A DNA stretch of 64,000 nt from Laspinema olomoucense D3b (GCF_025370785.1 NZ_JAMXFA010000017.1:1-64000), one strand, 5' to 3'. Shown: positions 6,096-46,431, counted from the first letter of the stretch. Program-made: numbers and translations. The notes: generated by a model from the letters alone, not told the origin.

Positions 6096-7028
6096 ATGAA
6101 TGATCAAGTAAGGGAGAGAGGCGATAACCTTCAGTCGGCTCACAGCCTCGGCGAACTTCCCGCTCGATTGGATAACCTCAAAAGTCAACTCCTAAATTTT
6201 ACCGTCCGAGATTCCGAAGGACAACCACTGGGTCGAGTTACGGATTTAACGGTAGAACCGGAGAACAAACTCAACTTAATTGTCTCCCGGGGAGACGATC
6301 GCCCCAGTGGGTTGGTGAAAGTGAGTAGCGATTTGATTGAAAAAATAGAATATGCCACCAATACAGTCTTTGTCTTACTGACAAGAGAACAGTTAGACGC
6401 CCTACCCGAATATCAAACTTCGCCCTACCGAACCGAAATTGACCCCTCGGAGTTACCCGGAGAGTGGGTAAACCCAGTTTCCTCGCCTCCAAGTCCCGGT
6501 ACACTTGCCCTTGAGGAGCGATCGCATCAAATCGACTCAGCGAGTTCCTTAGCGGACTATAACCAAATCCGCAAAGAAGTGATTGCCAGTAATATTCCCT
6601 TACACGAAGAACGATTAGTGGTGAATCGCCACAAGCGGAAAGTCGGTGAGGTGGTGGTCCGGAAAGAAATTGAAACCCGGATGATTGAAGTCCCCGTGCG
6701 TCGGGAAAAGTTAATTGTTGAGCAAGTCAGCCCCGAGTATAAAAAATTAACTGAAATTATTTTAAGCGAGGCAGAGGGTTATCCCATCCGGTCCGATGAA
6801 GCGCCCGGAATCCTGCCTACCTCGTCAGTTATGCCCCAAGGGCAAGCCCAGAACCGAGTCAGCGGAGAATTTGACTCCCCGGAAATTGCTGCTCGAATTT
6901 TAGAAGAAATTTCCCAGCGACAACCGAACGGTTGTGGAAAAGTGCGGATTGAACTGGTGGTGGAAGAAGAACGGTTTCTCAGTACCTATCAGTCTTGGTT
7001 GGATAGCTATTCCAAGCCGCAATCCTAA
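6096..7028 (+). CDS. PRC-barrel and DUF2382 domain protein (copy 2)
   Basis: A 310-residue relative of the protein at 4952-5839. A PRC-barrel-like domain covers residues about 28-105 (starting near SQLLNFTVRDSEGQPLGRVT), and a DUF2382 segment follows at about 165-220 (IPLHEERLVVNRHKRKVGEV). The last 50 residues (LEEISQRQPNGCGKVRIELV) differ from copy 1 and may be a further small domain. It is soluble with no export signal. The tandem arrangement suggests an old duplication followed by strong divergence. Function is unknown; by analogy with the family, a stress-related cytoplasmic role is an inference only. Confidence 0.8.
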   Translation: MNDQVRERGDNLQSAHSLGELPARLDNLKSQLLNFTVRDSEGQPLGRVTDLTVEPENKLNLIVSRGDDRPSGLVKVSSDLIEKIEYATNTVFVLLTREQLDALPEYQTSPYRTEIDPSELPGEWVNPVSSPPSPGTLALEERSHQIDSASSLADYNQIRKEVIASNIPLHEERLVVNRHKRKVGEVVVRKEIETRMIEVPVRREKLIVEQVSPEYKKLTEIILSEAEGYPIRSDEAPGILPTSSVMPQGQAQNRVSGEFDSPEIAARILEEISQRQPNGCGKVRIELVVEEERFLSTYQSWLDSYSKPQS

Positions 7029-7112
7029 ATTCCCAGGAGTGAGTAATACAGCTAAGAACGGGCGGGGGTTTGAACCTCCGCGCGTTTTTTTTGCGGCTGG
7101 AATGGGGGGGTA

Positions 7113-9923
7113 TTAACTCGCTGGGGTATAATCGGCCATCGCTTCCCCTGAAGGGTTATAGGCGATGATGCGATCGCGACCGGCAGTCTTGGCTTGATAG
7201 AGTGCTTGATCCGCACAGCGATACAAGGTATCCACCGTTTTCCCATCTTCGGGATACTGAGCCACCCCGCCACTAAAGGTTAGGTATAGACGCTCCTCCC
7301 CGATTACAAAGGGTTCTGCATGGAGGATTTGGACGACCTCACTTAGGCGTTTGGTCCCGGACTCCTTGTTAATGCCATACATTCCCACCACAAATTCTTC
7401 CCCACCCCACCGCGCGACGATATCCTCACTCCGAAAGGTGTTCCGTAAGAGCTTGCCAAATTGCCGCAGCACTGCATCTCCCATTGCATGACCGTGGAGA
7501 TCGTTGACTTGCTTAAAGCGATCGAGGTCTAACATCGCCAGACACATCGGTTGTCCATGCAGTTGGCACAGGTGCAGGAACTTGTCAAATTCGGTGATAG
7601 ATTTGCGCCGGTTCGCCACGCCGGTGAGCGGATCAGTTTCGGCCATGTTTCGCAGTAAGTGAATGCGTTCAAGACGGTTGAGGAGGCGGGTAACCAGTTC
7701 CGGGCCGACGATGGGTTTACTAATATAATCATCGGCACCGGCAGCAAACACTTGATGGACAATATCCGGACCCGTGTGGGCGGTCAGAAATAAGACCGGC
7801 AGACTGTTCCATCGCGGATCGTTGCGCACAACCTGACACAGTTCAATCCCGTTGAGGTGGGGTAATTCGATATCCAGAATCAGCAGATCTGGGGATGAGA
7901 CTTCTAGGGTTTCCCAGAAGCGCTCGGAGTCAGAGAGGGTGATGGTTTTCATGCCCCAAGGTTGGAGGAAATGTTTAACCAGGGAGAGGATTTGGGGGTC
8001 ATCATCCACGACCATGATTTTAGCTTCCGTGGTCTGAACTCCCTGCAAAACCTGCACAACCGCTTCCATGATTTGAGCGGGTCTCACAGGTTTTTGTAAA
8101 AAAGCACGGCCTCCGAGTCGAGCGACTTCTAATCGGTCTTCTACCCGACTTTGGTCGGCAACGACCAGAACGGGGAGAGGGGGGAACCCATTGGCGAGTT
8201 CGGAGAGTAAGGTTAATCCCTCTTCTTTATTGTTGGGGTTGATGGTGAGGGTGTCTTGGGCGGATAAATCTAATAAGACGGCATCGGGACGGCGATCGGC
8301 GATCGCCGTTCGGGCGCTGGCGATCGAGTCACTGTTGACCACCTCCATTCCCCACCCTTTGACCTCCAATCCCATCTGTTGGGACAGTTCCTGGTCCCCC
8401 TCAATCATCAGGAGCAGGGGTAGATCGTTGAGGGGAGTTCCCCCCCGGCGCTCGCTCTGGATGGGCGCTTGGTCGATCTGCGATCGCAGGGCCTGAACTA
8501 AGACCGCTAGATGCGCAGATTGGCTGGAATTGAGGGTGGGATTGTGCAGCAACTGCTCCACTTCCCGCGCAATTACTGAACCTTGAGTCAACCCAAAGGT
8601 CCCTAAAGACCCCGCCAATTTGTGCGCTTCCTGTTTTGCCTTAGCGTGCAATTCCTGGGGAAGTTCGCCATCTTCCAGGGCCTGGGTTGCCTGCTCGATC
8701 GCCGTTACTCGGTCCGCAATCCGGTCTTTGAACCGTTCCCAGACTTGGCCAATGGCCGCCACAATAGTCGGATCCTGTTTCGGGGAGCCTTGGGGATCTG
8801 ATAAGTTCAGATGCAGGAGTTTAGCGACTTCACGAGCGAGTTTCTCCGCATCCAGGGGGTGATAGAGAAAGGAGGTAACCCGATCTAGGGTTTCCGACTG
8901 CTGTTGGGTGGTTGAGCTATTTCGGGTTTCGGGCAGTTTTCTCCCTTTGCCCAAGGGGGCGCGGGGGTAGCTGTCTACCCCTTTTACTCCACAGTAAATC
9001 ACCGGAATCGGGGGAGCAGATTGCCCTTTATTGCCGATATGTTTGAGCAGTTCTGCCGGTCCGGGATGGCGCAGGTGTTGATCTAAAATGACTAGGGACC
9101 ATTGGCGATCGCTCAGTTCCGTTCGCGTATCTTCTCCCGTATGAGTCACCCGGACCACCGCATCTCCCAGGCGCTGTTGCAACCAAAACCCCAACTCGTC
9201 CGAGAACCCCCCCATCAGGATGCGAGGCGTTTGTACTACTTTCTCCTCACTCTGGGGTTTGAGTCGATACCCCAACCCATAGACCGTTTCGATCGCATCT
9301 GCCGGAGCCCCACTGCATTTGAGCTTTTGCCGCAACCCTTTGATATGGGCGCGAATCGTATCTTCCGAGGGGGGTTCATCAAAGGACCATAAATGATCCA
9401 GAATCGCACTGCGACTATAAACCCGGGTGCTATTTCGCATGAACAGTTCCAACAGGCGATATTCCGTCGGGGTCAAAGTTACAGGTTGGTTGTTATAGGT
9501 AACGTCACAGTTACTCGGATTAAGTTGTAAAGCTCCCCACTCTAACACGGGGGGTAATGGAGCTGTTCCCCTGCGTAATAAGGCCCGAATTCGGGCTGTA
9601 AGTTCCGGTAAGTCAAAGGGTTTGACGAGATAATCATCGGCCCCGGCATCGAGTCCTTTAACTTTATCTTCTGTGCTGTCTTTTGCCGTAAGCAATAGGA
9701 TGGGCATTTGATAGCTTAAGGTGCGTAACTTCCGGCATAAACTAATTCCATCTAATTTCGGCAGCATGACATCCAGCAACAGCAGGTCATAGTCAAAGGC
9801 TTCCGCTAATTCTAAGCCCAATAGCCCATCAGTGGCTACATCTACTACATGGTTTTGGTGTTTCAATGTAGTGACAAGTGCTTGGGCGATCGCTTCGTCA
9901 TCCTCCACCAGTAAAATTCTCAT
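7113..9923 (-). CDS. Multidomain response regulator: REC-OmpR wHTH-REC-like-HPt-REC-like-REC-GGDEF
   Basis: A 936-residue signalling protein. Domains in order: receiver (1-118, phospho-acceptor Asp51); OmpR/PhoB winged helix (about 128-222, ending VYGLGYRLKP); degenerate receiver-like region (about 235-370, Asp281); HPt domain (about 390-490, His434 in HKLAGSLGTFG); receiver-like domain (about 500-628, Asp552); true receiver (about 635-750, Asp684); and a GGDEF diguanylate cyclase (about 760-925) with an active GGEEF at 840-844 and an RSED product-inhibition site at 831-834. It should receive phosphate at several points, bind DNA, and make cyclic di-GMP. The DNA-binding plus cyclase fusion is unusual. 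It is monocistronic, with an ATG start on the minus strand. Confidence 0.93.
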   Translation of the reverse strand: MRILLVEDDEAIAQALVTTLKHQNHVVDVATDGLLGLELAEAFDYDLLLLDVMLPKLDGISLCRKLRTLSYQMPILLLTAKDSTEDKVKGLDAGADDYLVKPFDLPELTARIRALLRRGTAPLPPVLEWGALQLNPSNCDVTYNNQPVTLTPTEYRLLELFMRNSTRVYSRSAILDHLWSFDEPPSEDTIRAHIKGLRQKLKCSGAPADAIETVYGLGYRLKPQSEEKVVQTPRILMGGFSDELGFWLQQRLGDAVVRVTHTGEDTRTELSDRQWSLVILDQHLRHPGPAELLKHIGNKGQSAPPIPVIYCGVKGVDSYPRAPLGKGRKLPETRNSSTTQQQSETLDRVTSFLYHPLDAEKLAREVAKLLHLNLSDPQGSPKQDPTIVAAIGQVWERFKDRIADRVTAIEQATQALEDGELPQELHAKAKQEAHKLAGSLGTFGLTQGSVIAREVEQLLHNPTLNSSQSAHLAVLVQALRSQIDQAPIQSERRGGTPLNDLPLLLMIEGDQELSQQMGLEVKGWGMEVVNSDSIASARTAIADRRPDAVLLDLSAQDTLTINPNNKEEGLTLLSELANGFPPLPVLVVADQSRVEDRLEVARLGGRAFLQKPVRPAQIMEAVVQVLQGVQTTEAKIMVVDDDPQILSLVKHFLQPWGMKTITLSDSERFWETLEVSSPDLLILDIELPHLNGIELCQVVRNDPRWNSLPVLFLTAHTGPDIVHQVFAAGADDYISKPIVGPELVTRLLNRLERIHLLRNMAETDPLTGVANRRKSITEFDKFLHLCQLHGQPMCLAMLDLDRFKQVNDLHGHAMGDAVLRQFGKLLRNTFRSEDIVARWGGEEFVVGMYGINKESGTKRLSEVVQILHAEPFVIGEERLYLTFSGGVAQYPEDGKTVDTLYRCADQALYQAKTAGRDRIIAYNPSGEAMADYTPAS

Positions 9924-10796
9924 AGCAGTTTATTGTAAGGGTATGAATTGGACTCCTGATGAGTCAGCCGCATAAAAAAGCATCTATTGTTAATCCGGGG
10001 GTTGCTTCCGGCAATTTTAAGTAAAAATTAGTAGTCAATCACCCCCCCTCCCAAAGAGGTCTCAGAATAAAAATCTCCACTGGAGGAGCTTGGCTGAAAG
10101 GGGATCGCACCGTTAAGTTGAGGGCTTACGATTGTCCCGGACGGTTCAAGCCTGGGGCTATTCTCAAGATATACCTGAGACTCTCTAATCCATTCCTGTC
10201 ACTCCTCCAGAAAGATAGCCTCTGCTTCCATTGTAAGCTAAAGTCGCCTCATTTCGAGAAATTACGGGGATAAAATCTATCCCAAGTATCAGAAGAATTT
10301 TGAGTGTCAAGGAAATGAAACAGCAACTTTTAAGGGGAATTACGGAGAGATTTGGAGGAAGCAGTTTAAGGCAATTCACCCTCAGCAATCCTTTCTCCTA
10401 GGGGTTTTCCTTTTATCATTAGGTGATTGCCCCCTCTCTTTCCGGGACTGAGTTCACCCCTTCCCGTGAAATTACTAAGTATTCAACAGCACTGTTCATA
10501 ATTATTAACACTTATCCTGGTCTTTCAAGGGTTGACTTTTAATTCACAATATAGATTTGCCTACATTAAGGGCGTTTATAGCACCTCTTGCAGCAGTTTG
10601 GCCTAAAAAGGGGAGGTAGATGCAAAGCCTGGGGCAGGGCTTGGCTCGACGGTACTCCAAAGCTCTCCTGGCGGGACCGATTGTCCAATCCATTTAGGGT
10701 CGCTATAGACTGGATGGGTAAACCCCGCCGAGGTGACCCGGGCAGACATTGTTCCCTTAATTTAAAGGCTCTGTCTCATATTTTATTGTTAAACAA

Positions 10797-10877
10797 TAGA
10801 CCTCTTGCCAAATTCTTTAAAGCCCCCCTTATTAAGGGGGGGAAAGGGGGATCAATCCTTTTTTTGCAAGAGGTCTA
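10797..10877. repeat. 81-bp MITE-like element with 12-bp terminal inverted repeats
   Basis: Perfect 12-bp termini TAGACCTCTTGC (10797-10808) and GCAAGAGGTCTA (10866-10877) enclose a C-run/G-run hairpin near 10831-10844 and an ATCAATCC segment. The right half recurs at 15341-15398 and, inverted, from 46446. There is no coding capacity, so it would be a non-autonomous or REP-like element. Target duplication is not clear. Confidence 0.75.
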
Positions 10878-11287
10878 ATACTGGGGTTAAGGTTAAAATT
10901 TTTAATAAAATTCACTGCTTAACTGAATGGGAAAGCAGCCCCGAGCGATCGCCCTATTCACCAGAGTTGAGCTGCTATGGGATCAGAGTGCGGTGACGGT
11001 ACTCAGACAGGTCCGGGCATCTTTCTGAGCCTTCTGGTCAAGTTGATGGGGCTACATTCGAGCAATCTCACCTTTAGCCCACTCTGGATCCACAAAATCC
11101 CCGGCAGCCGGAGGCGGTCCTTACAAGAGTAAGTTTTTTACGCTTCACTGCACCTGCGGTCCCCGGACCAAGACATCGGGAAAGGTGAGGGTGGGGTGTC
11201 GGCGGTGAGGGGGCGATCGCCAATCTGCCCAGGGATAGTAGACATTTTAGGTCCCGACTGGATTCCCCGGACCGAACGGAAAAGCGC

Positions 11288-11293
11288 TATAAT
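11288..11293 (+). promoter_or_regulatory. Possible -10 box (TATAAT)
   Basis: A perfect TATAAT lies 66 bp upstream of the ATG of the epsilon-like gene. No convincing -35 hexamer is seen 16-18 bp upstream, so this is only a candidate promoter. Confidence 0.35.
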
Positions 11294-11358
11294 ATCGCCG
11301 TTGACACCCGAGAACGTTGAAATCATTTGCTTATAAATATAATAACCCTCCCAGTCCT

Positions 11359-11841
11359 ATGATTTTGAACGTTTATGTCATCACTCCCTCAAAAACCGTC
11401 TGGAATGCTCCGAGTCCCGAGGTGATTTTGCCCACAAGTACGGGTCAAGTCGGGATTTTGCCCGGTCATGTGGCGATGGTTACTTTTATTAAAGTCGGGG
11501 TCATGAGAATCCGCTATCAAAAAACTTGGATTCCGGTTTTTGTCCAGGCAGGATTTGCAGAAATTGAAGGGGATATTGTGACAGTTTTAGTGAATGATGC
11601 CGAACGGGGCGATCGCATTGGTTTAGAAAGTGCTCACTCTGAGCTAGAAAAAGCAGAGGAACAGTTGAATCAGGCTCAAAATTCCCTAGAAAAAATCCGC
11701 GCCCAACTTTTTCTAAAACAAGCTCGTGCCCGGGATGCTGCCGCCCGAGACTTTCCTTATTCATTGCAACTGGATATCCCGGATCCGATAGCTTTAAAAA
11801 AGGCACCCGTTTCTGCTTTGACAATGATTGAACATTTATAA
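11359..11841 (+). CDS. Orphan F-type ATP synthase epsilon subunit-like protein
   Basis: A 160-residue protein whose first 85 residues match the beta-sandwich of the F1 epsilon subunit (VYVITPSKTVWNA; EVILPTSTGQVGILPGH), followed by the two-helix region (residues about 90-140, Glu/Gln/Ala rich). In F1 this subunit links gamma to the c-ring and limits wasteful ATP hydrolysis. It is longer than usual for the family (about 135 residues) because of a C-terminal tail with the ending SALTMIEHL. No beta-subunit gene is adjacent, whereas cyanobacterial epsilon genes normally follow atpB, so this is probably a second, divergent copy. I placed the start at ATG 11359; an earlier TTG at 11317 is less likely. 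Confidence 0.8.
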   Translation: MILNVYVITPSKTVWNAPSPEVILPTSTGQVGILPGHVAMVTFIKVGVMRIRYQKTWIPVFVQAGFAEIEGDIVTVLVNDAERGDRIGLESAHSELEKAEEQLNQAQNSLEKIRAQLFLKQARARDAAARDFPYSLQLDIPDPIALKKAPVSALTMIEHL

Positions 11842-36238: not shown

Positions 36239-36430
36239 CTAATCGAGGGCGTCCCCTAATTCGGGATCCGCTTCCAAATTATCCGGATCGACATAGTGGC
36301 AGGAATTTTCGACGCAAATCAGCGCCCAGCCAGAATCTTCAATGCCCATCAGCTTATAGGAGGCTTCTTGAACGAAAAATCCTTTATGATTACGGGTTTC
36401 GGGTTTGACAGTAACGTTATCCATAGTCAT
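36239..36430 (-). CDS. Small acidic protein of unknown function
   Basis: A 63-residue soluble protein ending ADPELGDALD, acidic overall, with one Cys pair region (ALICVENSCHYVDP). I do not recognise a family. Support comes from the gene's setting: an AAGGAG-type ribosome binding site upstream of ATG 36430 on the minus strand, and a well-formed terminator about 50 bp downstream. It may begin at the second ATG two codons later. The 540 bp to the right form a long divergent promoter region shared with the exported-protein cluster. Confidence 0.6.
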   Translation of the reverse strand: MTMDNVTVKPETRNHKGFFVQEASYKLMGIEDSGWALICVENSCHYVDPDNLEADPELGDALD

Positions 36431-36972
36431 TTCTACTCAACTCCTTGTTTAAAATGCAGATTTGCGATTAACCTGTTTTTAAAGGTTTATCGCTAAGTTC
36501 ATCAAATCTTATCATTAAAATAACCTTTTTTTTATTAAGTTTTTCAAAAAAACATTAATAAATATAAATACTCATCGGGTCCGGGGTTTAGATAACTTGA
36601 GGTTGATTACCCAAACTTAGGGATATAGAACAAAAGTGATCGATTAAAGGGACATTTCCGTTCCACTCTGGGCCGATCGCCGGGGCTTATCGGAAATCTT
36701 AAAACTTTGTTAAAACTTGAATGAGCATTGTCCAGGGGCTGAACTGGCAAAGGGTTGTCACCCTTTCTTGGGGTCACGTGCTTCAGGGGAGTGGTCCTCA
36801 ATTTGTCCGGAAAAAATCGCCGTGGGAACGAGTTGGGAGGCGGGGGAGTCGGGAATGCTCCAGAGGGGGAACTATTGGAGTCACATCCGTGATTACGAAC
36901 TTAAGTCACAAGGGTATCATTTCATGTTAAACCTAAAATTAAGATCGTGCAGGAGAGGGGATGCCGTAACTG
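36431..36972. other. Intergenic region upstream of the exported protease cluster
   Basis: 542 bp, strongly A/T-rich at 36480-36600, then mixed. Open frames within it (such as 36717-37013) lack ribosome binding sites and overlap the COP23-like gene in another frame, so I reject them. AGGAGAGG near 36953-36960 probably serves the COP23-like gene. The promoter of the cluster should be here, but boxes are not clear. Confidence 0.45.
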
Positions 36973-37626
36973 ATGAAGAGGCCATTATTAACAGTAGTAA
37001 TCCGAGGGAGTAAGGTCAGGACGATCGCACCCTTGCAAACCCTGACCACTCAAGCATTAATACCTGTCATCCGAGGGAGTCAAGTTGGGGCGATCGCCCT
37101 CTTGCAGACCCTGACTGCTGCGACCCTGACCCTCGCACAACCTCAACCCCCGGTAGAAACGACTAGCTTTTTCTGTGGGACCGTTGAAGGAATTCCCGCC
37201 ACAATGGCACGTACCCCTAACGGGGAAATGCCGATGGTGATTTGGGATAAAAATGCCATCAAAGACCCGGAGATTAACGCGCAACAACAGTGTGAGGAAG
37301 TCTCCAATCGCTTCCAAACCTACTATGACAACGGGACCCTAAACTATATCACCAGTGGGATTATGAATGGGGAACTGGTCGCCTGTGTTGCACCGGGAGA
37401 AAATGCACCCTGTAGCGGGATCTTGTTTCCCCTCAGCGGTGGCAGCAATCCCCGAGGAATGTTGCAACGGATGTTCCGAATTCGGGTGGCATCCGCCGGA
37501 CCGATCGCGGAAACGACCGATCGCCTGTACATCAGCTTTGATAAGTATTTAAACGGGGAATATCCTCAACTTCCTTCCTTGGGAAGTCGGACCCCCCCAG
37601 TCCCCCGTCGAGATGTTCCCCAATAA
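36973..37626 (+). CDS. COP23-domain-like exported protein
   Basis: A 217-residue protein. After an N-terminal hydrophobic leader, residues 55-195 fit the COP23 pattern: FFCGTVEGIPATMART, a WDKNAI stretch, QQCEEVSNRFQTYYDNGTLNYI, and VACVAPGENAPCSGILFPL. COP23 is named after a 23-kDa rhythmic membrane protein of a marine cyanobacterium; function is unknown. Four Cys suggest disulfides and an oxidising compartment. The leader is oddly repeated: two 23-residue copies of VIRGS...LQTLT. The Pro-rich tail ends the chain. The protease-WD40 gene begins 17 bp after the stop codon, so the two are co-transcribed, and COP23 may serve as a partner of that protease. Confidence 0.82.
   Translation: MKRPLLTVVIRGSKVRTIAPLQTLTTQALIPVIRGSQVGAIALLQTLTAATLTLAQPQPPVETTSFFCGTVEGIPATMARTPNGEMPMVIWDKNAIKDPEINAQQQCEEVSNRFQTYYDNGTLNYITSGIMNGELVACVAPGENAPCSGILFPLSGGSNPRGMLQRMFRIRVASAGPIAETTDRLYISFDKYLNGEYPQLPSLGSRTPPVPRRDVPQ
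36997..37134 (+). repeat. 69-bp tandem duplication of the leader-coding segment
   Basis: GTAATCCGAGGGAGT at 36997 recurs as GTCATCCGAGGGAGT at 37066, and the similarity continues through CTTGCAAACCCTGAC and CTTGCAGACCCTGAC. The period of 69 bp equals 23 codons and keeps the frame, doubling part of the leader of the COP23-like protein. Confidence 0.8.
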
Positions 37627-37643
37627 CCGGGAGGCAAAACAGT

Positions 37644-39305
37644 ATGCAATGGTCTAAGGCGGGTCTATCAGCGGCAATCCTGGGGGTAGGGGCCGTAATT
37701 TTAGTAGCACAGGCCCCCATTTCCCTACCCCAAACTCAGGGCATGGAAGAACAGGCGATCGCCGCAATGGGTCGCGATGTGTCGGTAGTGATTAATGGCC
37801 AAAATCCTGGTTCTGGGGTGATTATAGCCCGCAATGGCAATACTTACACCGTACTGACGGCCAAACACGCGATCGCCACCCCGGATGAATATGCCATTCT
37901 CACTAGCGATGCTCAAACCCATCCGGTCGATTATGGCACGGTCAAAAAACTGCCCGGGGTTGATTTAGCAGTGGTGGAATTCACCAGTCCCAACCGCTAC
38001 CGAGTCGCACATTTCGGCAATTCTGATGAGGCAATGGAAGGGGCGACCATTTATGTGTCGGGTTGGCCCCATCCGGGACGAGTGATTACAGAACGGATTT
38101 ATCAGGTGGCAAAAGGGACGATTTCCGGTCGTCCTCTCACGGCATTAGAGGATGGGTATGGGTTGATTTATACCAATATCACCCGTTCGGGAATGAGTGG
38201 CGGTCCGGTGTTTGACAATCAGGGCCGGTTAATTGGCATTCATGGACGTGCAGAAGGGGAACCGATTTACAATCCGGATACGGGAGATACGGTGGATGTC
38301 AAATCCGGGTTTAATGTGGGGATTCCGATTAATACCTTTGTGAGTCTGGCGGGGGAAGCAGGGATAAATTCACCTCACTTAGGAGATAATTTTGCCCCGG
38401 CAAGTCTGACTCTCCCGGCACATTCGTCTTTGGTTTTGACGGTGGCGGTGGCCCCGGACAATCAGACGATCGCCAGTGGGAGTAAAGATGGCATCATCAA
38501 ACTTTCCAATGGAAATACCGGCGCAGAAATCCGCACCCTTACCGGCCATACCAATGCAGTAACGGCTCTCACGTTTAGTCCCGATGGGCAAATTTTAGTG
38601 AGTGGGAGTGAGGATGGAACGGTCAAACTGTGGAACCGGCAGTCTGGGGAACTGGTGAGAAGTTTCCAAGGCGATCGCTCCTTTGTGAGGGCAGTGGCCT
38701 TTAGTCCCGATGGCACTCTCTTGGCGTCCGGCAGTGCGGAAGATACAGACATTAAACTTTGGAATCCCCAAACCGGAGAGTTAATTCGCACCCTCCCCGG
38801 ACATGGGGACTATGTGAATAGCGTGGTCTTTAGTAACGATGGCAAACTCCTAGTGAGTGGCAGTACGGATAAAACCATCAAACTCTGGAATCCCGACTCG
38901 GGAGAAACAATCCAGACTCTCACGGGGAATGCCAACCGGATTACATCCGTTGCCACGACGTCTTATGGCAACCTCCTCGCTGCCGCCAGTGCAGAAGATG
39001 GACTGATTAAAGTGTGGAATCTTCGTACCGGGGAATTGCTACAGACGTTAACGGGTCATACGGGAACCGTTTATAGTATTGCTATTGACCCCTACGGTCA
39101 TATTCTCGCCAGTGGCGGAATTGATGGGACGATCCAGATGTGGAACCTTTATACGGGGAACCGGGTGCGAAATCTGGAGGTGAGAAATTCAGGGATTAGC
39201 AATCCAATTCCGGTGTTTTCCGTCACCTTTTCTAGGGATGGTAAAACCCTGGTCAGTGGTGCAGAGGATGGCACGGTTCAAGTGTGGCAAATTCCCCAAC
39301 GTTAA
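37644..39305 (+). CDS. Exported trypsin-like serine protease with WD40 propeller
   Basis: A 553-residue protein. Residues 1-32 look like a signal peptide (SAAILGVGAVILVAQAP). A chymotrypsin-fold protease follows (about 40-235) with the full triad: His75 in LTAKHAIA, Asp107 in PGVDLAVVEF, Ser185 in RSGMSGGPVF. Residues about 255-550 contain seven WD40 repeats (for example TALTFSPDGQILVSGSEDG, TVKLW), enough for one closed propeller. The export signal and propeller suggest a periplasmic protease guided by bound partners. It sits 17 bp after the COP23-like gene and 359 bp before a related protease-TPR-WD40 gene with clearly similar protease sequence. Confidence 0.92.
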   Translation: MQWSKAGLSAAILGVGAVILVAQAPISLPQTQGMEEQAIAAMGRDVSVVINGQNPGSGVIIARNGNTYTVLTAKHAIATPDEYAILTSDAQTHPVDYGTVKKLPGVDLAVVEFTSPNRYRVAHFGNSDEAMEGATIYVSGWPHPGRVITERIYQVAKGTISGRPLTALEDGYGLIYTNITRSGMSGGPVFDNQGRLIGIHGRAEGEPIYNPDTGDTVDVKSGFNVGIPINTFVSLAGEAGINSPHLGDNFAPASLTLPAHSSLVLTVAVAPDNQTIASGSKDGIIKLSNGNTGAEIRTLTGHTNAVTALTFSPDGQILVSGSEDGTVKLWNRQSGELVRSFQGDRSFVRAVAFSPDGTLLASGSAEDTDIKLWNPQTGELIRTLPGHGDYVNSVVFSNDGKLLVSGSTDKTIKLWNPDSGETIQTLTGNANRITSVATTSYGNLLAAASAEDGLIKVWNLRTGELLQTLTGHTGTVYSIAIDPYGHILASGGIDGTIQMWNLYTGNRVRNLEVRNSGISNPIPVFSVTFSRDGKTLVSGAEDGTVQVWQIPQR

Positions 39306-39664
39306 CTGTATTTTAGAATTGTTTTAATCTCATGGTTGAAAATGGGTATTCGGTCATTTATTTAGTTTTATTAAGGTATGCAATTGTAGCAATTTTTCCT
39401 AATTTGTTGAACTCCAAACGGTGGCGAAACGAGGGAGAGTCTCGTTGCCAAATCCATGAATTATCTGTGGTAATGGGGAATGGGCAAACGGGCAATCGAC
39501 TGTTTTTACACCAGGGAAAACCCTTAGCGGCATCCAGTCCTGACGGCTAAACTTTTGTGACAGGTAGCTACGTTCCAGGGGGTTCTGGTGGGGGTGGTCA
39601 ATTTTTGAGCGGTTGGCGATCGCCTCCTTAAATCCTTAAATTCAACTCGCTTACAAAGGAAAAC
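39306..39664. other. Spacer between the two protease genes
   Basis: 359 bp. A 72-codon frame (39332-39550) has no ribosome binding site and no recognisable features; I do not call it a gene. AAAGGAAAAC just before 39665 acts as ribosome binding site for the second protease. Confidence 0.4.
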
Positions 39665-42187
39665 ATGAGTCGCACTTTTAGTCTGCATTTTCATCAAACC
39701 ACAGCAGCAATTATCATTCCCGCTGTGATGTTCAGTGTCATTCCGATCGCCTTGAGTCAAGTTACGCAAGCTGACATTGCCACCCCTACGCAGGAAGTTA
39801 CAGTAGTCATCAACGGCCAAAATCCCGGGTCGGGAGTGCTGATTGGCAAGCAGGGTAATACCTATACGGTATTGACTGCAAATCATGTGGTTGCCAGTCC
39901 TGATGAGTATCAAATTGTCACGGCAGATGGGAAACAATATCCGCTCAATTATACCACAGTTCGCAGATTGCCGAATTTAGATTTAGCCTTGGTTGAGTTT
40001 ACCAGTGACCAACAATATGCGATCGCCCAGATGGGAGATTCCCATATCGCTCAACCGGGAACTTCCGTGTATATTGCAGGATGGCCCCATCCGGGAATTG
40101 CCATTACAGAACGGATTTTTCAAATGACACCGGGTCAAATTTCCGGGCGATCACCGTCGGAAACCGAGTCCGGATATGAATTGATTTATACTAATATTAC
40201 GCGATCGGGCATGAGTGGCGGTCCCGTTTTAGATACTTTGGGGCGTCTGATTGGGATTCATGGACGCGCTGAGGGACAAGCAATTTATAATCCCGATACG
40301 GGAGATACGGTGGATATCAAATCCGGGTTTAATTTAGGCATTCCCCTGGATACTTTTATAGAATCGATTGAAGCGATGGACTCCACGGTTTTATCCACCA
40401 ACCCTTCCTTTGCTTATCCCCTTTCTAAACAGGGCGATCGCCTGTTAGCTGCTAACCAAATTCAACCGGCAATCGCCCAATATCAAAGAGTTTTAGCCCT
40501 AGATCCGAATTATCTACCGGCGGTATTAGGGATGGGACAAGGGCAGTATGAAGCGGGAGACAGTTCAGGGGCGATCGCCCAATTTCAGAAAGCCATTAAT
40601 TTAGCAACGGAGGCGATTTCCCAAGTTCAATCCAATCCTAACTCCTCCCCTCAAGAGCAACTCTTATTAGTACAACTCAACGAAGTCCTAGGGAACGCCC
40701 AAGTTGCACTAGCGAGTGCCTTATATGCCAGTGGCGAGCAGGAAACAGCCCTTTCCCTCGTCTTTGAACTGTTGAAAAGCCCAGAAAATTGGCAGGGGAG
40801 AGTAACCTTGTTGCAACCCAATTTTACCGGGTCTCGCCTCCAAGCTGATGCCCAAGCTGTTGCCGCTGCGGGGCAACAAATTGTCACCCAAGGAGTAGAT
40901 TATTTACCCACAAAATTCAACCTTGCCCAAGCGCTTTATGAGCGGGGTCAAGTGCAAGAGGCGATTCCGTATTTAGAAACTTTATTTCAGGAAAACCCCC
41001 AGGACGCGCCTGGAAAAATAGCTTTAGCAGCAGCATTAAATGCTACGGGAAATCGGGAACAGGCAAACCGTTTGGTTTCTGAGTTGCAATCGGAATATGG
41101 GGGTCAATTTCGAGATGAAAATTTCGAGTTTTTGTTGATGGGACTGTGGAGTAGTCGCCTCCGGGAAGATGTCACAGAAATTTTAGCGTACTATCGCCCC
41201 AGTGGAACCCGCGCAACTTCTCCCGAATTTTCTAACAGTACCCTGTTACATTCTGCCGAAGATAGCGATCGCGCTTATATTGAGTTTCTATCCCTCTCGC
41301 GCGATGGAAAAATCCTCGTCAGTACCAATGGCGAAGGCACGATTAACGTCTGGGACATTGAAAAAGGAACCATTCGTCATACATTCTCCTGGACAGGCAA
41401 CATCCGGGATGCGATCGCCCTGAGTCCTGATGGAAGGTTGCTTGCTGCGGGCATCTGGGACGATACCGATAATACACCGAAAATTCAACTGTGGGATACT
41501 GACACCGGCGAAGCAGTGCGAACCCTCACTCACCCCGGCACTGACGGAATTAGCGCAGTCGCCTTCAGTCCCAACAGTCAAACCCTTGCCAGTAGCGGCA
41601 AGAACATCATTTTATGGAATGCGAATACCGGACAAGTGCTAAACACCTTGGCGGGGAACTCACCTTACTCTAGCTATTCCCTCGCCTTCAGTCCCGATGG
41701 CGAGATGATCGCCAGCAGCAGTGTAGAACTGATTCAACTTTGGAATTCCAGCAGCGGCGAAGAGGTGAACCGAATCGAACTCTTAGGGGAACATATCGTC
41801 AATGGACTGATATTTAGTTCCCAGGGTAATCTCCTCCTCAGTCAGACGGATAGCGGGATTCAGTTTTGGAATCCCAGCAACGGGAGTGCAGTCACTCGCA
41901 TCCCCCAGGGTCAAAAATACGCTTTGAGTCCTGATGGGCAAACGTTGGCCCTTTGTGCGGGAAGCGAAATTTCCCTCGTCAATGTCGCCTCAACCCAGGT
42001 GGTTCGGACCTTGCTGGCCCCCTCAAGTTGTTACCAACTGGTGTTTTTACCCGACGGCAAAACCCTCGTCAGTGGCGGAGATGGCGGTAAAATTGAGCTA
42101 TGGGATCTCAATACCCCAACCACCCGGAACCCCACCCTAACCCTCCCCAACGCACAGGGGAGAGGACCCCAGGGAATTGTATCTTAA
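39665..42187 (+). CDS. Exported serine protease-TPR-WD40 protein
   Basis: An 840-residue protein with a signal-like start (residues 12-31 hydrophobic, IALSQVTQA). The protease domain (about 43-235) keeps His74, Asp106 and Ser184 in the same contexts as the upstream paralog and shares NPDTGDTVD and KSGFN motifs. Unlike that paralog, it has a TPR region between protease and propeller (about 250-480; AIAQYQRVLALDPNYLPAVL, ALYERGQVQEAIPYLETLF). WD40 repeats (about 530-825) complete the chain, some imperfect. It is probably periplasmic. The paralogs differ mainly by the inserted TPR block, showing modular growth. The pentapeptide gene follows after 46 bp. Confidence 0.92.
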   Translation: MSRTFSLHFHQTTAAIIIPAVMFSVIPIALSQVTQADIATPTQEVTVVINGQNPGSGVLIGKQGNTYTVLTANHVVASPDEYQIVTADGKQYPLNYTTVRRLPNLDLALVEFTSDQQYAIAQMGDSHIAQPGTSVYIAGWPHPGIAITERIFQMTPGQISGRSPSETESGYELIYTNITRSGMSGGPVLDTLGRLIGIHGRAEGQAIYNPDTGDTVDIKSGFNLGIPLDTFIESIEAMDSTVLSTNPSFAYPLSKQGDRLLAANQIQPAIAQYQRVLALDPNYLPAVLGMGQGQYEAGDSSGAIAQFQKAINLATEAISQVQSNPNSSPQEQLLLVQLNEVLGNAQVALASALYASGEQETALSLVFELLKSPENWQGRVTLLQPNFTGSRLQADAQAVAAAGQQIVTQGVDYLPTKFNLAQALYERGQVQEAIPYLETLFQENPQDAPGKIALAAALNATGNREQANRLVSELQSEYGGQFRDENFEFLLMGLWSSRLREDVTEILAYYRPSGTRATSPEFSNSTLLHSAEDSDRAYIEFLSLSRDGKILVSTNGEGTINVWDIEKGTIRHTFSWTGNIRDAIALSPDGRLLAAGIWDDTDNTPKIQLWDTDTGEAVRTLTHPGTDGISAVAFSPNSQTLASSGKNIILWNANTGQVLNTLAGNSPYSSYSLAFSPDGEMIASSSVELIQLWNSSSGEEVNRIELLGEHIVNGLIFSSQGNLLLSQTDSGIQFWNPSNGSAVTRIPQGQKYALSPDGQTLALCAGSEISLVNVASTQVVRTLLAPSSCYQLVFLPDGKTLVSGGDGGKIELWDLNTPTTRNPTLTLPNAQGRGPQGIVS

Positions 42188-42233
42188 ATAAACTGAAATA
42201 AAAATGGATCTATCGGAGGTATAATGATTAGTC

Positions 42234-43016
42234 ATGAGCAGAAAAGTGAAACCAAAACTATTCGTTTTGACGGTTCTGTTCCTATCCCTGGGGTGGATGG
42301 GACTCACTCGCGCCGAAAATGCGACTCACCTCCAGCAATTGCGGCAAACAAATCAATGTCCCAATTGTGATTTGCGCGGAGTCAATTTGTCTCGGGTTCA
42401 ACTCAGAGGGGTGAATCTCACGGGGAGCAATCTCACCGGGGCCGATTTCAGCAATGCTGACTTAGAAAATAGTGATTTACGCGGGGCGAATCTCACCGAA
42501 GTTAATTTTAACGGAACTATTCTCTCCGGTGCTCGCCTCGATAGCACTACCCAAATTGATCGTAAATGGCGAATGGTGTGGGAAATCGTCTCTCAAGGGG
42601 CGCGGGAACGGGATATTTCCGGGGCAGACTTATCCTATGCCTATCTCCAAAATGTCAATTTCAGTGGGGCAAATTTGGCGGGGTCTAACTTAACTCAGGC
42701 TGAATTAAATGGCTGTAACTTAAATAGTGCGAATTTAAGCCATGCTAACCTCACCAACACCAATTTAAGCCGCGCTAATCTCACGAATGTCAACTTAAAA
42801 GGGGCAAATTTACAGAATGCCAATTTACAGGGGGCTGATCTAAGTGCGACAGACTTAAGCGATGCGGATTTGCGGGGGGCTGATTTAACCCGTGCCGACT
42901 TGCGAATGGATTCGGTTTGGGGATATACTCGGTTACGCGGGGCCAATCTGGATGGGGTGAATGTCTGTGATGCGGTGATGGATGATGGGCTGAAAGTTGA
43001 GTTAAATTGTCGGTAA
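42234..43016 (+). CDS. Exported pentapeptide-repeat protein
   Basis: A 260-residue protein with a signal peptide (KLFVLTVLFLSLGWMGLTRA) followed by pentapeptide repeats of the A(D/N)LXX type in two blocks (about 45-98 and 125-240: GANLTEVNF, SADLSYAYL-like units, ANLQNANLQGADLSATDL), separated by a 30-residue non-repeat stretch (DRKWRMVWEIVSQGARERDI). These form a right-handed square beta-helix. A CPNC Cys pair near residues 37-40 and a Cys near each end could be disulfide bonded outside the cytoplasm. GGAGGT at 42215-42220 gives a 13-base spacing to ATG 42234. Function is unknown; it lies 46 bp after the protease gene and is probably co-transcribed. Confidence 0.9.
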   Translation: MSRKVKPKLFVLTVLFLSLGWMGLTRAENATHLQQLRQTNQCPNCDLRGVNLSRVQLRGVNLTGSNLTGADFSNADLENSDLRGANLTEVNFNGTILSGARLDSTTQIDRKWRMVWEIVSQGARERDISGADLSYAYLQNVNFSGANLAGSNLTQAELNGCNLNSANLSHANLTNTNLSRANLTNVNLKGANLQNANLQGADLSATDLSDADLRGADLTRADLRMDSVWGYTRLRGANLDGVNVCDAVMDDGLKVELNCR

Positions 43017-43221
43017 GGTCATTGAGGGGCGATCGACGCTATAACAGAATAACCGAAATAGAATAGACGAGGAGGGCGGTACAAGATTGGGAAGAAAAAC
43101 GGGTTTTTTTTACAAAATTTCTGCCAATCTCCACCCCAGACAGGGCCAAAAACCCGGGTTATTGTCCCTGAGATCTGATACTATCCCGATGCTCTAGTCA
43201 TGTTAACCTCAAGGTAGCGAA

Positions 43222-46200
43222 ATGCATTTCCCATTCAGTCGTCTCACTCTCATTCCGGCGATCGCCTTGCTGTCGGTCCCTGCATCTGGATTCTCTGCGC
43301 CTCTGTGGGCGCAAATCCCCCCAGTGAACAGGTCCGAACCCTCCAGCGAACTTCTCAATGATACCCCGCGCCTCCTGGAACAGGGAATCGAGCAATTTCG
43401 CCAGGGAGACTTTCAAACCGCCTTGCAAACCTATCAACAAGTCTTACAGCGACATTCCCTCGAAGGCGATCGCCTCCAGATGGCGGCTGCCATGACTCAG
43501 ATCGGGGAAGTTTATACTGCCTTGAGTGATTATACTAAAGCCTTAGAACAATTAGAAGCTGCCTTAACCATTCGCCAGGAATTGAACGATCGCCCCGGGG
43601 TGGGAGAAACCCTCAACCATATCGGTTTTGTGTACAGTCGCTTAGGAGACTATCCCCAAGCACTACAACAGCATGAACAAGCGTTAGAAATTGCCCGAAC
43701 CTTGAACCAGCGCTCCATTGAAGGGGAAGCATTACATCACATCGCGGCAGTGTATGCCGCAACGGGAGAGTATCAAAAAGCCGTGCAATTGTATCAAGAA
43801 GCCCTCGTGATTCGCCAGGAAGTCGGAGACAAACGAGATGAAGGACGGACTTTGAATAATCTCGGTGGCGTGTATTATAGCCTGGGAGAAGCCCAACGTG
43901 CTTTAGACTTGTATGAACAAGCGCTAAAATTGCGAGAAGAAGTTGGCGATCGCGCGGGAGTAGCTCGGTTATTAAGTAATATAGGACTGTTATATCGACA
44001 ATTTGGCCAAGGCGATCGGGCCTTGTCTTACTATGAACAAGCCTTACCTATTTTAACAGAAATTGGCGATAAATCTAGCTTAGGCAATACCTTAAATGGA
44101 TTAGGGGTACTCTATGAAGAACGAGGAGAGTATCAACAAGCCTTGTCCGTTTACAATCAATCTTTAGCCCTTGCCGAAGAAATAGGCGATCGCCCCGGCA
44201 TGAGTAAAACCCTCGATAATGTAGGGGGAATTTATTATAGCCTCGGGCAGTATCCCCAGGCTTTAACTTTCTATGAACGGTCCTTAAGCCTCCGCCAAAG
44301 CCTGGGCGATCGTCCCGGCATGGGAACGATTTTAAATAATTTAGGCGGGCTTTATTACAGTTTAGGAGAGTATCCCCAAGCCTTAGAATTATTGCAACAA
44401 GCCTTAACTATTCGCCAAGAAATTGGGGATAAATCAGGAGAAAGCCGTAACCTAGATGCCATTGCGATCGTCCATGAAAAGCTCGGTCAATATACCGAAG
44501 CCTTAGACAGCTATCAACAAGCCTTAGAGATTGCCAACGCTATTGGCGACCCCACCGCCCAAGGCAATGCTTTAGAACATATTGGCGGTGTTTACCTGAG
44601 TTTAGGACAAACTGCCCAATCCCTAGAATTTTTACAACAAGCCCTACAAACCTTTCAACGCATTGGCGATCGCGTCGCCATCGGACGGACCCTCAATGGC
44701 ATTGCTTCCGTCTATTATCGCCTGAAACAATATCCCCAATCCTTGGAATTTCTGCAACAAAGTCTCAAAATTTTAAGAGAGACGGGAGATAAAGCAGGAG
44801 AAGCGATCGCCCTGGCTAATTTAGGGAGAATTTTCCAAGAACAAGAAGATATACTTTTAGCCACCGCTTTTTATAAAAAAGCAGTTAACCTTCATGAATC
44901 CACCCGTCAAAACCTCAGAGTTCTGTCCATAGAACGGCAACAATCCTTTACCGAAACCGTGGCCGATACCTATCGTCATTTATCCGATTTATTGCTGCGC
45001 CAAAATCGTATCCTTGAAGCACAACAAGTTTTAGACTTATTAAAAATTCAAGAACTTGACGAATACCTCCAAAATGTACAAGGTAACGAACAAACCGCCT
45101 CCGGAGTCCAGTTTTTACCGGAAGAAGAAAAACTCGCTGAGGAATATCTCACCCTTCAAGAACAGGCGATCGAACTCGGGCAAGAATTAAGTCAATTAAA
45201 AACTATTCCCGAAACTGAACGCACCCCCCAACAGCAAGAACGAATTGCTGAACTTGAGGGCATCCTGCAAACCCTGCGCCAAAAGTTTGACCGCTTTATC
45301 GAAAGTCCCGAAATCATCGAAATTGCCGATGAAATTGCTCGCCAAACCAGTGGAGAGAACCTGGACTTAACCAATATAGCCCAATTGCAAACGGCATTGC
45401 AGCAGTTAAATCAAAAGGCAGTCTTACTCTATCCCCTCATTTTGGAAGACCGCATCGAACTAATTTTAATTACTCCTGATACTCCTCCGATTCATCGCTC
45501 AGTTGCCGTGAATAAAGCCAATTTAAGCCGGGGTATTACCGAGTTTAGAACCGCCCTCACCGTTCCCTCTAAACGAGCTAATTCGGGTATCCCTAAAATA
45601 GCAGGAAAGCAGTTATATAATTGGTTAATTCAACCCTTTCAAAGTGAACTCGATCGCCTAGAAGTCGAGACCATTATTTATGCTCCTGATGGACTTTTAC
45701 GTTATATTCCATTAGCCGCATTGTATGATGGAGAAAAGTGGCTGGCCCAGCGGTATCAAATTAATAATATTACGGCAGCTTCATTAACCAACTTCAATGT
45801 TGCTCCTCCAGAACAACTCAAAATTTTAGCCGGTGCATTTACCCAAGGAACTTATAGCGTTGAAGTGGGAACGCGACAATTAGCCTTTTCGGGGTTACCT
45901 TTTGCCGGAAAAGAAGTAGAAAATTTGGCGGCGACTATTCCCGGGACAATGAAACTCATTGATTTGGACTTTAACCGAAGTGCTACCACATCGGGAATGA
46001 GCGATCGCAATGTGATCCATTTAGCCACTCACGCCGCCTTTGTCAACGGGCAACCGGAAGATTCATTTATCATGTTAGGCGATGGCGATCGCATCACCTT
46101 GCGCGACTTAGAACAGTGGTCCTTACCCAACGTCGATTTAATCGTCCTCAGTGCCTGTCAAACCGCAATGGGAGGACAAATGGGCGACGGAACAGAAATC

Positions 46201-46431
46201 CTCGGATTTGGCTATCAAATGCAAAAAGTCGGTGCCAAAGCTGCAATCGCCTCTTTATGGTCCGTCGATGATGGCGGAACCCAAGCCCTCATGACCGCTT
46301 TTTATAATAGCTTAAAAACAGGAGAAAACAAAACCGCCGCCCTTCAAAAAGCTCAACTCGCGTTACTCGAAAGTGATTATAGTCATCCTTATTACTGGGC
46401 TTCTTTCATTCTAATTGGTAATGGATTTTAA
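43222..46431 (+). CDS. Exported TPR-CHAT caspase-like protease
   Basis: A 1069-residue protein with a signal-like N-terminus (LIPAIALLSVPASGFSAPLWA). Residues about 50-560 hold a dozen 40-residue TPRs of kinesin-light-chain type (GDRPGMGTILNNLGGLYYSL is representative), a helical linker follows (about 590-720), and a CHAT domain occupies about 760-1065 with catalytic His937 in HLATHAAF and Cys979 in LSACQTAMGG. CHAT is a caspase/separase-like cysteine peptidase (peptidase clan CD). CHAT proteins with TPRs are frequent in multicellular cyanobacteria; some CHAT enzymes act in cell-death defence (for example TPR-CHAT of type III-E CRISPR). No CRISPR genes are present. It is the last gene of the co-oriented cluster. 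Confidence 0.93.
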   Translation: MHFPFSRLTLIPAIALLSVPASGFSAPLWAQIPPVNRSEPSSELLNDTPRLLEQGIEQFRQGDFQTALQTYQQVLQRHSLEGDRLQMAAAMTQIGEVYTALSDYTKALEQLEAALTIRQELNDRPGVGETLNHIGFVYSRLGDYPQALQQHEQALEIARTLNQRSIEGEALHHIAAVYAATGEYQKAVQLYQEALVIRQEVGDKRDEGRTLNNLGGVYYSLGEAQRALDLYEQALKLREEVGDRAGVARLLSNIGLLYRQFGQGDRALSYYEQALPILTEIGDKSSLGNTLNGLGVLYEERGEYQQALSVYNQSLALAEEIGDRPGMSKTLDNVGGIYYSLGQYPQALTFYERSLSLRQSLGDRPGMGTILNNLGGLYYSLGEYPQALELLQQALTIRQEIGDKSGESRNLDAIAIVHEKLGQYTEALDSYQQALEIANAIGDPTAQGNALEHIGGVYLSLGQTAQSLEFLQQALQTFQRIGDRVAIGRTLNGIASVYYRLKQYPQSLEFLQQSLKILRETGDKAGEAIALANLGRIFQEQEDILLATAFYKKAVNLHESTRQNLRVLSIERQQSFTETVADTYRHLSDLLLRQNRILEAQQVLDLLKIQELDEYLQNVQGNEQTASGVQFLPEEEKLAEEYLTLQEQAIELGQELSQLKTIPETERTPQQQERIAELEGILQTLRQKFDRFIESPEIIEIADEIARQTSGENLDLTNIAQLQTALQQLNQKAVLLYPLILEDRIELILITPDTPPIHRSVAVNKANLSRGITEFRTALTVPSKRANSGIPKIAGKQLYNWLIQPFQSELDRLEVETIIYAPDGLLRYIPLAALYDGEKWLAQRYQINNITAASLTNFNVAPPEQLKILAGAFTQGTYSVEVGTRQLAFSGLPFAGKEVENLAATIPGTMKLIDLDFNRSATTSGMSDRNVIHLATHAAFVNGQPEDSFIMLGDGDRITLRDLEQWSLPNVDLIVLSACQTAMGGQMGDGTEILGFGYQMQKVGAKAAIASLWSVDDGGTQALMTAFYNSLKTGENKTAALQKAQLALLESDYSHPYYWASFILIGNGF

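Follow-up and report, generated by a model that had tools for sequence, protein, structure and literature searches.

What holds together a row of genes for apparently exported proteins, several of them peptidases, and which of its members serve a common task? This question is raised by the locus at 36973-46431 of Laspinema olomoucense D3b, which was analysed here within a 64,000-nt stretch of the genome (the window). The answer is sought in the integrity of the genes, in the company that they keep in other genomes, in gene fusions and in comparison with known protease systems.

Gene content, integrity and putative export

The row consists of five intact open reading frames, all on the plus strand. 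The first (36973-37626) encodes a 217-aa protein that is, by its Pfam score, a clear member of the COP23 family (PF14218; E 7e-35; 120.2 bits versus a curated cutoff of 27), i.e., of the circadian oscillating protein of 23 kDa, which the literature consulted describes only as strongly oscillating or highly expressed and of unknown function (PMC6315102, PMC11131595). Next come a 553-aa Trypsin_2-WD40 protein (37644-39305) and an 840-aa protein (39665-42187) in which TPRs sit between Trypsin_2 and WD40 (PF13365; 75.6 and 91.3 bits, respectively; cutoff 27.6). A 260-aa pentapeptide-repeat protein (42234-43016; E 3.5e-53 in Pfam) and a 1069-aa TPR-CHAT protein (43222-46431; CHAT PF12770, E 8.5e-62; 209.6 bits versus a cutoff of 24), both with leader-like N termini, complete the set. 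The preliminary description had read two trypsin triads joined to WD40 and one TPR-CHAT dyad from the sequence, and this was borne out: the triads H75/D107/S185 and H74/D106/S184 and the CHAT dyad H937/C979 are complete, and Pfam returned the expected domains. The genes are also co-oriented as claimed, but the spacers, said to be short, had to be corrected to 17, 359, 46 and 205 bp, in this order. Values of dN/dS of 0.08 to 0.27 against three congeners (two in the case of CHAT) indicate purifying selection on all five genes, and judged by these features the row is a predicted conserved protease operon. The region upstream of COP23 (36430-36972, plus strand), which includes the 5' region of this gene, has a mean column identity of 92% among seven Laspinema-group genomes, and Rfam gave no RNA match in the window. 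Divergent from COP23, the minus strand holds an open reading frame of about 63 aa (36240-36431; MTMDNVTVKPETRNHKGFFVQEASYKLMGIEDSGW...) in a stretch that is 85 to 91% identical within the genus.

Among named organisms, Laspinema, Phormidium pseudopriestleyi and Oscillatoria sp. HE19RPO are the most closely related. Within the genus, six further genomes contain the locus with the same flanks and two to four tandem trypsin genes; it was not located in another one, G005. TPR-CHAT follows the trypsins in G003 and G006 and extends past the stretch read in G004 and G007; the G001 contig stops short of CHAT, which in G002 is found on a separate contig. The 359-bp spacer (39306-39664, plus strand) was recognized by comparison with these relatives as a deletion scar, the remnant of a second trypsin-WD40 gene: its left ~154 bp match the start and its right ~209 bp the end of a trypsin-WD40 gene that is still kept in G002, G004 and G007, with an overlap of ~4 bp at the junction. 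The scar and the varying number of trypsins thus indicate an array that gains and loses members between a constant COP23 head and a constant CHAT tail.

The signal-peptide-like starts noticed earlier were assessed with a heuristic for a positive n-region, an uncharged hydrophobic core and a small-x-small cleavage-like site. All five proteins were positive, while 20 of the 30 other genes in the window scored zero, and the leaders look real, even to the point of having been exchanged in one relative (see below). COP23 has a leader of about 55 residues (1-55) and four invariant cysteines (C68, C107, C138 and C147), which would fit an exported, disulphide-bonded protein. About 24 aa of this leader (36973-37137) are duplicated in tandem and in frame (VIRGSKVRTIAPLQTLT... 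/ VIRGSQVGAIALLQTLT...), whereas G001 carries them once. The leaders of the trypsin-WD40 proteins share the motif G[LI]SAA..G across families (GLSAA in the 553-aa protein). At locus L180 (genome G066) the leader of TPR-CHAT (8438-11707) is nearly identical to that of the adjacent trypsin (6676-8400), which suggests gene conversion or leader exchange; because of this likeness, the two proteases may well be sent to the same place. The five proteins are thus putatively exported; they are not mentioned in the main text of the localization papers on Anabaena and Synechococcus. Export had also been taken as a special trait that, together with the lack of an NTPase, sets the row apart from cytoplasmic conflict systems. 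The lack of an NTPase stood up, but putative export is not peculiar to the CHAT protein of this locus, since of the 20 CHAT proteins of D3b that were examined (L195-L214; 43 CHAT matches in the genome), about 14 have leader-like N termini. Several of these begin with what we take to be filamentous-haemagglutinin-like starts.

Linkage of COP23, trypsin-like proteases and CHAT proteins

The strongest link, that of COP23 with trypsin, was missed in the preliminary description and is found far beyond the locus. Our survey covered 78 COP23 genes outside the genus, 54 short and 24 long ones (235 to 340 aa). A same-strand Trypsin_2 gene lies within 1.5 kb downstream of 36 of the 54 short genes and within 3 kb of 42, and two more are fused to Trypsin_2; at a density of 2.1 Trypsin_2 genes per Mb, 0.0016 per gene or about 0.1 of 54 would be expected by chance. 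The long class is linked to trypsin in 4 of 24 cases, and since it is mostly unlinked, COP23 would have other roles too. A second sample of 20 new loci, drawn from unused genomes of other families and orders, yielded 18 clear cases, one partial and one absent, the COP23 loci of both samples having been picked by Pfam score and convenience and not at random. This class-wide linkage also holds within the D3b genome, where four of five COP23 loci adjoin Trypsin_2 although its 7 Mb contain no more than 13 Trypsin_2 matches, and the copy numbers of COP23 and Trypsin_2 are strongly correlated (rho 0.89 over one genome from each genus; partial r 0.86 after correction for genome size). Most of the COP23-trypsin pairs have no adjacent CHAT gene. 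An RNA-seq study of Arthrospira platensis reported 21 differentially expressed genes in total, with COP23 (RS07465) and the serine proteases RS07460 and RS07455 about 4-fold down (PMC13114239); judged by their consecutive tags, the three are probably neighbours. The pairing is apparently new, as no earlier report of it was found in the literature searched.

Some COP23 loci have features of their own. Three COP23-trypsin clusters (L055, L111 and L137) contain a putative exported M48-like metallopeptidase with a HEIAH motif, as read from the sequence, and L223 has three adjacent COP23 genes that are mutually closest relatives with no trypsin nearby. Neighbouring COP23 copies are mutually closest, as has been reported for effector-associated domains (EADs), also in L053, L101 and L118, and they are not in L065, L138 and L140.

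With respect to CHAT, the full TPR-CHAT protein was searched against 148 genomes of the order. Close relatives, with 53 to 60% identity, belong to the families f32 and f14. In five f32 genomes (L176-L180), COP23 is followed on the same strand by one or two trypsin(-WD40) genes and these by TPR-CHAT, as in D3b, and in L175 trypsin-CHAT is present on the portion of the contig that was read. The same components are rearranged in two more families, in L181 of f14 and in L188 of Oscillatoria princeps (also in L129). The gene order proposed as a module therefore recurs in six genus genomes and, as COP23-trypsin-CHAT, in f32, and with regard to gene order and leaders the module passed the refutation test set in the preliminary description, but the pentapeptide gene was seen in module loci of the genus only. 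The outer neighbours scanned in f32 (an invertase, a Cys/Met PLP enzyme, GmrSD and DUF4336) are unrelated, and the module is for this reason bounded by the trio of COP23, trypsin and CHAT. More distant CHAT relatives (L182-L187 and L189-L194) lack the trio; in L187, trypsin and a partial COP23 lie ~6 kb from CHAT. In a tree of CHAT domains the trio-linked members do not form one clade (five label changes, at least two of them forced), so that CHAT may have been recruited several times or frequently lost.

The scattered position of the linked CHATs, like the apparent confinement of the pentapeptide gene to module loci of the genus, would be expected if COP23 and trypsin were the functional pair and CHAT and the pentapeptide protein mere neighbours with no common task. 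Some adjacency is indeed to be expected, given the large number of CHAT genes (the D3b genome has 43 matches). The f32 loci, however, repeat order and strand with short gaps, a CHAT identity of 53 to 60% and unrelated outer flanks, and a COP23-CHAT fusion exists, so that we regard mere neighbourhood as an unlikely explanation.

A candidate role for COP23

Three fusion proteins, with all domains above the Pfam cutoffs, join COP23 directly to protease domains: a Trypsin_2-COP23 protein of 412 aa (P0004, L076), a trypsin-beta-helix-COP23 protein in the D3b genome itself (P0003, L053) and a COP23-CHAT protein of 619 aa in Argonema antarcticum (P0001, L133). A second assembly (L134; 92% identity) reads across the COP23-CHAT junction as far as the end of its contig. 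Since the CHAT domain of the fusion falls on a different branch from the CHAT of the module, COP23 and CHAT have probably become associated at least twice. At L053 (240-4283), two adjacent beta-helix (DUF1565/NosD) proteins have a C-terminal COP23, and one of them also has an N-terminal trypsin.

The explanation that we favour, and to which we give somewhat better than an even chance, is an operon for exported proteolysis that is regulated or directed by COP23. COP23 would be a small, secreted, disulphide-stabilized partner of trypsin-like (S1, Trypsin_2) proteases, and both would be exported to the same place, i.e., the periplasm or the cell surface. In this lineage and in some others, the set would also include an exported caspase-like TPR-CHAT protease, and the WD40 and TPR parts would probably offer surfaces for substrate binding or assembly. 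The most probable task of COP23 itself would be to bind the protease domain or its substrate and in this way to regulate or direct cleavage. We infer such a binding or regulating role because its gene directly precedes that of a protease and because it also occurs fused to trypsin or CHAT; joint action of trypsin and CHAT would be a further step.

The main rival, which seems to us rather unlikely, is that COP23 acts as a dedicated inhibitor in the manner of an antitoxin or a propeptide and silences the exported proteases until their site is reached or COP23 is degraded. A small protein, predicted to be secreted and cysteine-bonded, whose gene opens the operon directly ahead of a protease gene and whose copy number follows that of the proteases would suit this role well. 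Yet COP23 is C-terminal in both trypsin fusions, where a propeptide would be N-terminal, another fusion joins it to CHAT, a protease class with no relation to trypsin, and no inhibitor fold was recognized for its structure model. This model has a mean pLDDT of 76; Foldseek found no match at E<=0.001, which is not evidence of a new fold. A VIA-align relative was rejected (best Z of 4.2 over 57 residues), as were the PDB sequence matches to the COP23 profile, which were antibody-like noise only. For the CHAT half, the AlphaFold model reached a pLDDT of 57 with only four sequences, and no CHAT structure was among the PDB entries matched by sequence to the CHAT part.

Another alternative, raised in the preliminary description with either the trypsins or WD40 surfaces as possible activators, is a periplasmic proteolytic cascade in which the trypsins cleave and thereby activate TPR-CHAT, which would then cleave envelope targets or cause cell death. 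Cascades of trypsin-like proteases have been suggested in other multi-peptidase systems of bacteria (PMC7159879), and the co-localization of trypsin and CHAT across families, the intact catalytic residues in both trypsins and CHAT and the leader common to both in L180 are all in line with it. No substrate or activation site was identified, however, and activation of CHAT cannot be the general purpose because most COP23-trypsin pairs occur without an adjacent CHAT gene; we therefore think a cascade distinctly improbable. For regulated or directed proteolysis, in turn, the linkage, the fusions and the co-regulation make the role of COP23 directly testable, as it should bind or regulate the secreted protease encoded beside it.

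Relation to known protease systems

The trypsins of the module share the protease fold, by profile, and a leader-like N terminus with the periplasmic HtrA/Deg-type S1 proteases (PF13365), and their best PDB sequence matches are DegQ/DegP-like proteases. They differ from these in having WD40 or TPR in place of PDZ, of which there is none among the matches listed, and in adjoining COP23; with 48.1 and 54.1 bits they stay far below the cutoff of 416.2 for the NCBIfam model of the Do/HtrA subfamily, TIGR02037. The CHAT protein shares with Csx29 of Craspase (type III-E CRISPR) the arrangement of TPR repeats ahead of a CHAT domain that has a His/Cys dyad, but it bears a leader-like N terminus and stands beside COP23-trypsin, and neither Cas7-11 (gRAMP) nor another Cas effector was present among the window neighbours examined.

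The NTPase-controlled peptidase conflict systems of multicellular bacteria likewise combine peptidases with repeat scaffolds (PMC7159879, PMC10907252). As in these systems, the multi-peptidase NucA system among them, several peptidase types and repeat scaffolds are here encoded in one operon, and a small domain is fused to or placed beside several effectors, as is COP23 (PMC7159879). The module could thus be a degenerate or variant system of this kind whose NTPase is encoded elsewhere, given the match in kinds of effector (trypsin-like and caspase-like peptidases, WD40 and TPR) and the position of COP23 as if it were a common adaptor. The earlier statement that there is no NTPase nevertheless held for the module and the flanks examined: scans of the five proteins and of neighbouring genes detected no STAND, MoxR or FtsH-type NTPase, no NucA was seen, and no EAD was matched among the families listed for the five proteins, COP23 being similarly placed but a different domain. 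PADLOC gave only partial matches, owing to shared protease and repeat domains, and the leaders point to a site outside the cytoplasm. Since neither an NTPase nor an EAD match came to light in the module or in the flanks examined, we did not assign the module to the conflict systems, and we consider such a derivation very improbable.

Within the favoured frame of exported proteolysis, a bolder reading is possible, although we think that it will more probably fail than hold: COP23 may be an exported adaptor that links trypsin-like and CHAT peptidases in the cyanobacterial periplasm or at the cell surface without any NTPase. If true, this would also assign a first function to COP23, which is under strong clock control. 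Caspase-like CHAT proteases, which are usually discussed as cytoplasmic effectors of death and immunity, would according to their predicted leaders often be extracytoplasmic in filamentous cyanobacteria, and the COP23 module may represent an extracytoplasmic counterpart of the cytoplasmic adaptor-coupled systems.
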